A stretch of 40,802 bases of DNA. It comes from Candidatus Methanophagales archaeon (GTDB lineage: Archaea > Halobacteriota > Syntropharchaeia > Alkanophagales > Methanospirareceae). A program made the translations under genes and the position numbers. Below are positions 4,185 through 34,781 of this stretch, piece by piece. The stretch is from assembly GCA_030612835.1 (NCBI GenBank), contig JAUWND010000003.1, positions 1 to 40,802 of the forward strand, given 5' to 3'. A model generated the notes under the pieces. It was not told where the DNA came from. It saw nothing but the letters and a program-made list of their open reading frames with translations, and ran no database searches. Position 1 is the stretch's first letter; every line of letters starts with the position of its first letter.

Positions 4185-4236
4185 AAAACCGAAAAGTTTT
4201 TAAATAGATGTGTCACTATACAGATATAACGGAAAA

Positions 4237-4767
4237 ATGAACAAAAAATTAGTTTGTGCTGTTATAGCTATGGTAGCGGTAATAGGTGTAATAGCCGGCT
4301 GTGCTGAGGGACCAGCGTCGGAAGAGGCCACGCCTGCGCCGACTGTGGCACCAACCGCACCGCCGACTGTGGCACCAACCGCACCGCCGGGTATGGTAAT
4401 GGCGACAAGTTGTGAGATGTGCCATAAGATCGAATCGACAGCCAAGTTGGCTAAACATGTAAAGGGCGGGCAATTGGTCAATGGTAAACCAGGCTGTTTC
4501 GGCTACTGGGGCTGTCATGGCATGGGTAATGCTACCGTACATACGGTCCATCCACCAGGAGAAGTTGGATGCGCAGCATGTCATGGCACAGAGACACCTA
4601 CGATTCCACCGAAAGGTGCAGGCGGGACAACATGTGAGCTATGCCACGGATATCCAAAGCCATTAGAGCCAAGCGAAGGAAACCTCGTCTGGATACACCA
4701 GGATAGGGGCAAGGACTGCACAGTTTGTCATATCGGTGAGATCTCAGAGATACATGGGCTGGAATAA
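4237..4767 (+). CDS. Lipoprotein multiheme cytochrome with Pro/Thr/Ala-rich linker
   Basis: Lipobox-like 'GVIAGC'; CEMCH, CAACH, CELCH, CTVCH plus CFGYWGCH. Confidence 0.85.
   Translation: MNKKLVCAVIAMVAVIGVIAGCAEGPASEEATPAPTVAPTAPPTVAPTAPPGMVMATSCEMCHKIESTAKLAKHVKGGQLVNGKPGCFGYWGCHGMGNATVHTVHPPGEVGCAACHGTETPTIPPKGAGGTTCELCHGYPKPLEPSEGNLVWIHQDRGKDCTVCHIGEISEIHGLE
4338..4388 (+). repeat. 24-bp tandem repeat encoding the APTVAPTAPP linker
   Basis: gccgactgtggcaccaaccgcacc present twice consecutively, plus a partial third. Confidence 0.85.
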
Positions 4768-4797: not shown

Positions 4798-4969
4798 GGC
4801 ACTGTCGAATTTTTCAGTAAAATCACTATAAGACTCTTCAAGTTTTACCGCAGAGTGCGCAGAGAACGCAGAGGCATCAGAAACCCCAAGCAATGGTTGG
4901 AACAGTCTTAAAACTCTGCGCCCTCTACGATCTCTGCGTTGATAAATCACTGGATTTTTGGACTGTGCC
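4798..4969 (-). mobile_element. MITE-like element, copy 1 (ACCGCAGAG core, GGCACTGTC-type ends)
   Basis: Aligns end to end with the reverse complement of 16441-16607; left end ggcactgtcgaa, right end ggactgtgcc. Confidence 0.8.
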
Positions 4970-4985
4970 CTTCTACTTATTTGAT

Positions 4986-5050
4986 TTAGGACGCAGATTT
5001 ACACGGATTTAATTCCTTCTGCGTTAATCTGTGTTAATCTGTGTCAATAA
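4986..5050 (+). repeat. Dispersed inverted repeat 'ttaggacgcagatttacacggattt...ctgcgttaatctgtgttaatctgtgtcaataa' (copy A)
   Basis: Imperfect palindrome; near-identical copy at 20329-20403, inverted copy at 23513-23566. Confidence 0.85.
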
Positions 5051-5085
5051 TTATTTTAGTTGGATTTTATGATTTCTTGTCGTTT

Positions 5086-15439: not shown

Positions 15440-16453
15440 ATGACGGCTAAATGTATTTGGATTTGGAAGGGCTTCTCAGTCATTTTGGCATTATACGTTA
15501 TCTTGCTTCTGGTGTCGCCTTCTATTGCAGGTGCATGTCCCACGGGAGTTAGTTGTAGCTGCAGTGATGATGCCGCCTTTGGTGCGGCCCTTAGCGCAGG
15601 CATGAAAATCCCTAATGAAGAAGCAGGAATGCCGGCATACACAAATGTTAGTGAGATGTTGACATACACAAACGCGGAATACAACTTTTCAATTGGCTAT
15701 CCCCATGATTGGACAGTGCAAGAAAACCTTCTGGACACTGAGGTGATATTCTCCGGGCCGATAGAGGATAATTACACGATAAACGCGAACGTAAGAACAG
15801 TAGAACTACCAGACGACACAATTAATGGCGAACCTGTTTCGGGGCATATAATTAGAACCACAACGGATGAAGGGATTGACGTTAAACATATGCAAGCATG
15901 TTTCGTACGTAATAGAACAGCATATGTAATAGGATTCACTGCTGCATCGAGCACATTTGATACTGCAGAAACGGATTACTTTGTGCCCATGTTACAAAGC
16001 TTTAAGTTCATAGAAGAAGCGGTTGGAATAGAGATTTCAGTAACAAACCAGTCTAAAGTCTTGGAAGGTGGTAATTTCACTGCATTTGTAACAGTAAATG
16101 ATGCTACTAACTTCACAATATTTCTGTTTAAGCTGAACTATGATTCTTCGGTCATAGAGTTAATCGAAGTCGAAAAGGGATTTGATAGCCCAACATCTAG
16201 TAGCTCTACATGGCTGAGGTGGGGTGATAAGGAAAAAGGCACAGTGCAAATTATCGCTTACTCTGATCCATTTGGGACGCTAGTTAACGGATCCGCGGAA
16301 CTCGTAAGGTTTGAGTTCCATGTTGTTGGACGTGCAGGAGAAAAAAGCGTTCTTGATATTCAAGGGATTATTGGTGATTCCGCTATGGAATCAATAGAAA
16401 CGATATGGGTGGACTCGGAGGTTACAGTCACGTCTGGAGAGGCACTGTCTTAA
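15440..16453 (+). CDS. Secreted PsbP-like plus cohesin-like domain protein
   Basis: Signal peptide; 'YNFSIGYPHDWTVQENLLDTEVIFSGP' PsbP-like; 'LEGGNFTAFVTVNDATNFTIFLFKLNYDSSVIELIEVEKG...GSAELVRFEFHVVGRAGEKSVLDI' cohesin-like. Confidence 0.75.
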   Translation: MTAKCIWIWKGFSVILALYVILLLVSPSIAGACPTGVSCSCSDDAAFGAALSAGMKIPNEEAGMPAYTNVSEMLTYTNAEYNFSIGYPHDWTVQENLLDTEVIFSGPIEDNYTINANVRTVELPDDTINGEPVSGHIIRTTTDEGIDVKHMQACFVRNRTAYVIGFTAASSTFDTAETDYFVPMLQSFKFIEEAVGIEISVTNQSKVLEGGNFTAFVTVNDATNFTIFLFKLNYDSSVIELIEVEKGFDSPTSSSSTWLRWGDKEKGTVQIIAYSDPFGTLVNGSAELVRFEFHVVGRAGEKSVLDIQGIIGDSAMESIETIWVDSEVTVTSGEALS

Positions 16454-16607
16454 AAACTAGTGATTTATCAACGCGGAGATCGCAGAGGGCGCAGAGTTTA
16501 AGAGCGTTCCAATTCACGCTTGGTTTTTCTAATGCCTCTGCGTTCTCTGTGTGCTCTGCGGTGAAACTTGAGGATATAGTGATTTCACTGGAAAATTCGA
16601 CAGTGCC
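16441..16607 (+). mobile_element. MITE-like element, copy 2, with 8-bp target-site duplication
   Basis: Ends ggcactgtc...gacagtgcc; flanked by tctggaga (16433-16440) and tctggaga (16608-16615); full-length match to reverse complement of 4798-4969. Confidence 0.9.
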
Positions 16608-16660
16608 TCTGGAGAATAATCTTTCAGCAGTTTAGCTGGTTCTGAACTCGCGCGAATTAG

Positions 16661-20328: not shown

Positions 20329-20403
20329 TTAGGACGCAGATTTACACGGATTTACACTGATTTGATTTTTTCTGCGTTAATCTGCGTTAATCTGTGTCAA
20401 TAA
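20329..20403 (+). repeat. Dispersed inverted repeat, copy B
   Basis: ttaggacgcagatttacacggatttacactgattt...ctgcgttaatctgcgttaatctgtgtcaataa. Confidence 0.85.
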
Positions 20404-20515
20404 ATATTTGATTTTAGTTTGTTCTCACTATTCGCGGTCTCACGAGCATCGAATACCTCTTCCTGAGACGAGAACATCTTACTAAATCAAATAGATGTTG
20501 ATAAGGGGCAAACAC

Positions 20516-23512: not shown

Positions 23513-23566
23513 TGTTGACACCGATTAACGCAGAAGAAATTAAATCCGTGTAAATCTGCGTCTTAG
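23513..23566 (-). repeat. Dispersed inverted repeat, copy C (reverse orientation, shorter)
   Basis: Reverse complement reads ctaagacgcagatttacacggatttaatttcttctgcgttaatcggtgtcaa. Confidence 0.85.
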
Positions 23567-34668: not shown

Positions 34669-34781
34669 CGGGCGTGACGGGATTTGAACCCGTGATTTGC
34701 AGCTTTCTCCCTTTTTTGATCGAACTTATGCGACAAATTTGTTAGGAGGCTGCCGCCATATCCTAGCTAGGCCACACGCCC
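34669..34781 (-). tRNA. tRNA-Arg (anticodon CCT) with ~38-nt intron after position 37 (34705-34742)
   Basis: GGGCGTG/CACGCCC acceptor; GCAGC-CTCCTA|intron|A-GCTGC anticodon arm; ACGGG-TTCAAAT-CCCGT T-arm. Confidence 0.92.

Follow-up and report, generated by a model that had tools for sequence, protein, structure and literature searches.

The 167-bp element at 16441-16607 is a MITE which, judging from its sequence and that of its relatives, very probably consists of the two ends of a local IS, one with a transposase of about 439 residues, placed around an unrelated hairpin core, and which that IS would have mobilised. It lies in a stretch of 40,802 nucleotides (the window) from a methane-oxidising archaeon of the ANME-1 group, Methanophagales-like by its kinship within the genome set; the genome of the window (G000) comprises 2.51 Mb in 213 contigs and is 86% complete. 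Direct reading bore out to the base the 167-bp element, 9-bp ends and perfect 8-bp duplication claimed in the first-pass annotation: the inverted ends are perfect over 9 bp (GGCACTGTC at 16441-16449 and GACAGTGCC at 16599-16607). Beyond these outer 9 bp the ends are not simple inverted repeats. The outer box and an AGTGA box are common to GGCACTGTCTTAAAAACTAGTGA and GGCACTGTCGAATTTTCCAGTGA, and because the bases between these boxes differ, the left and right ends can be told apart. Read as a single strand, the element folds at -71.9 kcal/mol (z -7.7). No ORF of at least 20 aa is confined to its 167 bp, the only ones present being overlaps with flanking frames. Lying between two convergent genes, the hairpin could serve as a transcription terminator.

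Table 1. Coordinates of the MITE, its parts and the features associated with it in the window.
Feature	Position	Strand	Basis or remark
MITE, GGCACTGTC subfamily	16441-16607	+	167 bp; 41 genome matches, statistics of target duplications (TSDs), no ORF of its own
Left copy of 8-bp target duplication TCTGGAGA	16433-16440	.	Sequence reading; single copy in the G003 and G001 orthologues
Right copy of 8-bp target duplication TCTGGAGA, then ancestral stop codon	16608-16615	.	
MITE left end GGCACTGTCTTAAAAACTAGTGA	16441-16463	+	Matches 3' end of partner IS
MITE right end GGCACTGTCGAATTTTCCAGTGA (reverse strand)	16585-16607	-	Matches 5' end of partner IS
Palindromic core, CGCAGAG-type arms	16468-16563	+	Unrelated to IS interior
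Second, older MITE copy	4798-4969	-	172 bp with 83% identity; no duplication in its flanks
Interrupted gene, cohesin-domain protein	15440-16453	+	C-terminus TSGEALS, was TSGE

A profile search of the protein encoded at 15440-16453 returned a cohesin domain (PF00963, 43 bits), with PsbP_2 below the cut-off. With the element in place the gene reads ...TSGEALS-TAA, and with the element removed ...TSGE-TAA. The exact insertion point proposed earlier, one codon before the stop, is supported by this reading together with the orthologues of two congeners, which lack the element and stop directly after the target (...ITPGE-TAG at GGAGAATAG in G003 and ...ITPEE-TAG in G001). The empty site that had been predicted was found in both, reading ...ATCACGCCCGGAGAATAG in G003 and ...ATCACGCCCGAAGAATAG in G001. 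In the window genome the ancestral stop position stands directly 3' of the right-hand TCTGGAGA, as the target duplication requires. The insertion hit the last sense codon of the cohesin-domain gene, and a TAA inside the left end of the MITE took over as stop codon, which lengthened the protein by ALS. Since the congeners end in PGE or PEE, the ALS tail is, on this comparison, new and probably neutral. Downstream of the orthologue G003 carries a gene of about 300 codons; the window genome lacks it, and in G001 it survives as a remnant. Two more MITE copies (L012 and L008) occupy sites that are likewise continuous and element-free in G003.

A search for copies of about 170 bp elsewhere in the genome and in relatives, which the first-pass annotation had put forward as a check, gave 41 whole or partial matches in G000 and between 6 and 20 in each of four congeners. 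One full-length copy, at 4798-4969, lies in the same window and had been missed on first reading. Exact 8-bp TSDs, all of different sequence, flank 10 of the 20 full-length copies examined in the genus, and the other half have no recognisable TSD; among these 20 copies no exact duplication had a length of 4-7 or 9-12 bp, and one copy matched over only 3 bp. When flanks were shuffled 1000 times, identity of at least 7/8 arose in 0.48 copies on average, with a maximum of 5. Given the 41 matches, and 10 exact 8-bp duplications against shuffled flanks, the observed pattern is not due to chance. A young subfamily B (L005, L006, L009 and L012) has GGCACAATCGA ends and a perfect 8-bp TSD in every copy, and its copies are 96-98% identical. 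The claim that the element is a MITE therefore stands, as it is non-coding and multicopy, with terminal inverted repeats, a constant 8-bp TSD and empty sites in relatives. Bacterial and archaeal MITEs derived from ISs are likewise short, non-coding and multicopy, with terminal inverted repeats, a TSD of fixed length and the ends of a resident IS; here, in contrast, the partner IS is not the source of the palindromic core. The element is of an ordinary kind, and its family is apparently undescribed so far: no earlier description was found in the openly accessible papers searched. Plasmid records gave no match.

Several other features were noted around these copies. Two MITEs (L002 and L019, at G000:C6:10101-10529) are separated by 94 bp, and both have a perfect 8-bp TSD of their own. 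A 1.2-kb segment that is present in three congeners and missing in G000 has its break point about 15 bp away from another copy (L006, at G000:C137:9869-10035). In the window, a 24-bp unit is duplicated in perfect tandem at 4337-4384, inside the ORF at 4210-4767, and a tRNA match on the minus strand (34669-34781) is unusually long at 113 bp and may contain an intron.

The end-motif search also returned non-MITE sites, several of which lie some 140-210 bp away from a contig end; these sites mark the termini of a repeated IS at which the assembly broke. A resident IS with MITE-type ends is thus present in G000, its copies broken at contig ends: six 5' ends lie near contig edges, and a deletion derivative lies on C91. 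Longer copies in relatives measure 1,645-1,931 bp, and intact transposases occur only there, none being present in the assembled G000. The IS ends in GGCACAATCGAATTTTCTAGTGATAT at its 5' side and GGCACAATCGAAAAAGTCAGTGATTTTT at its 3' side. For subfamily B the left end agrees with the 3' end of the own-genome IS at 24 of 26 positions and the right end with the 5' end, that of the own-genome IS derivative, at 25 of 26, against only 17-20 of 26 when the ends are compared crosswise, in the wrong handedness. The window MITE agrees at its left end with the IS 3' end of G010 (22/26) and of its own genome (19/26), and at its right end with the IS 5' end of G003 (22/26), so that the GGCACTGTC subfamily is less close to the sampled ISs (19-22/26) than subfamily B. 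The match is limited to the ends, whereas the interior of the MITE shows no resemblance to the IS. On different contigs of G000, two 5' halves of the IS re-join with two 3' halves by the 8-bp sequences CTTTTTAT and CTTTTAAG. An IS pair in G022 has an 8-bp duplication and one in G003 a duplication of possibly 9 bp; two of the IS duplications could be 9 bp long, and several older complete copies have no TSD. From the common ends and the duplication length, mobilisation of the MITE in trans by this partner IS appears likely.

An intact transposase of 439 aa is encoded as the single ORF of a 1,645-bp element (L113) in a family relative. It has a zinc-ribbon-like N-terminus and conserved residues D159, D216 and E383 (...YDEQHPK, VTD, TNNxxE), a putative triad which suggests a DDE enzyme. 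The IS66 profile PF03050 is above its cut-off for a fragment (L102) and matches two of six aligned members, though not the intact L113 protein; the NCBIfam IS66 model NF033517, whose cut-off is 180 bits, gives 29-32 bits, and a MULE domain matches three of the six members. The structure model is poor (mean pLDDT 60), and its matches to the RNase-H/integrase core fold carry weak E-values that do not decide the family; a PDB sequence search with the transposase returned nothing meaningful. A 40-aa frame located at the 3' terminus of the IS was rejected as the transposase C-terminus, because comparison of full copies places it downstream of the transposase stop; it was used solely as a search handle. 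IS relatives in Methanosarcina, about 50% identical, have GACTCAGTTCCAAAATCTAGTGAT ends (GACTCAGTTCC-ended) and an 8-bp duplication in three of the four copies read. The ISBst12 group of IS66 has a single transposase of about 440-450 aa and an 8-bp duplication, as in ISDge4 (PMC12898284), whose ends are of the GTRA type, GTGA/GTAA (PMC12898284). The partner IS resembles this group in its single 439-aa ORF, its 8-bp duplication and its partial PF03050 match, whereas its ends are GGCAC (GACTC in Methanosarcina) rather than GTGA/GTAA. Because the single ORF and TSD fit while the ends are not GTRA and the profiles are weak and inconsistent, we call it weakly IS66-like and not a member of IS66.

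G000 also contains a second palindromic repeat (CGCAGATTTACACGGATTT ... TCTGCGTTAATCTGTGTTAATC), far commoner than the MITE: allowing up to 2 mismatches, 176 sites occur in the 2.5 Mb, and none for a control pattern; in the window it occurs at 4991-5061, 20334-20414 and 23515-23565. At four loci (L240, L242, L243 and L246, on G000:C57, C199, C79 and C200) GxxExxY/PDDEXK_3 genes or their fragments adjoin palindromic repeats or lie between them, and on C57 the gene starts directly after a CGCAGAG arm resembling the MITE core. With the patterns used, no palindromic repeat was found beside the GxxExxY gene on C143. This arrangement suggests a REP-like association of GxxExxY genes with palindromic repeats. 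Seven half-MITEs (L024, L030-L032, L034, L036 and L038) retain the right part only, and in several of them the inner side is joined to an arm from another palindromic repeat; in L024 this is the same left arm as the one preceding the GxxExxY gene on C79. One young MITE (L009, at G000:C29:12734-12900) sits inside a copy of the abundant palindromic repeat, with an 8-bp duplication.

These data are best explained by a non-autonomous DNA transposon made of two IS ends of about 25 bp each around an unrelated hairpin-forming core. The zinc-ribbon DDE transposase of about 439 aa, distantly IS66-like, would bind handed subterminal sequences (...CAGTGAT) and would cut and join both IS and MITE, with 8-bp staggered cuts giving the target duplication. 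We infer this transposase biochemistry, as well as any effect on the host. The first-pass annotation had instead pointed to IS6/IS26, since the outer GGCACTG bases and the 8-bp duplication resemble that family, and some archaeal ISs filed under IS6 do have termini similar to the bacterial consensus (PMC6807381). However, the search for an IS6 transposase with the same ends, also proposed there, gave no match to the IS6 domain PF13610 in the five genomes of the genus (G000 and four congeners), although Methanosarcina acetivorans and other controls gave matches; it is over the cut-off in 2 of 50 family genomes. Compared with what we take to be the end of IS26, similarity extends over 14 bases only, at 10-11 of 14 for the GGCACTGTC subfamily and 7-10 of 14 for the youngest subfamily. 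The resident IS matches both MITE ends further inward and with handedness, and its transposase matches IS66/MULE-type domains. The IS6 resemblance amounts to the seven or eight outermost bases and the length of the TSD, for both of which this unrelated IS also accounts; the assignment is not supported, and mobilisation by an archaeal IS6-type transposase is very improbable. GGCACTG ends together with an 8-bp duplication do not suffice for an IS6 assignment.

Some other, unsampled IS bearing GGCACTGTC ends, either lost or encoded in a part of the genome that the 86%-complete assembly lacks, would account for the slight difference between the ends of the window copy's subfamily and the IS sampled in G000. 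Related IS variants ending in GGCACAATC, GGCACAGTC and GGCACTATC indicate, however, that drift inside one IS family covers this difference; such an IS would probably belong to the same family anyway, and we consider this origin very improbable. The strongly palindromic core, the 176 sites of CGCAGATTTACACGGATTT (control 0) and the half-copies joined to such repeats would also fit a relic REP-like palindromic repeat, spread by recombination or by a single-strand transposase, with an incidental duplication. Yet exact 8-bp duplications occur at 10 sites, with no other length, and empty sites are found too, which points to staggered-cut DDE transposition; single-strand transposition of the IS200/IS605 or REP type is not known to leave such duplications, and a relic of this kind is extremely improbable. 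More tentatively, and with considerable doubt, the MITE may be a chimera of IS ends and a captured palindrome like those bracketing GxxExxY (PDDEXK_3) nuclease-like genes in G000, the abundant CGCAGA-type palindromes forming a second, REP-like mobile system. If so, these palindromes would exchange arms with the MITE, as in the half-MITEs fused to such arms.

The MITE copies document recent DNA transposition in uncultured ANME-1 archaea, and they point to a probable transposase family, an IS66-like but divergent group with a single ORF, which is shared with Methanosarcina. They also illustrate that a neutral-looking insertion can rewrite the last residues of a protein.
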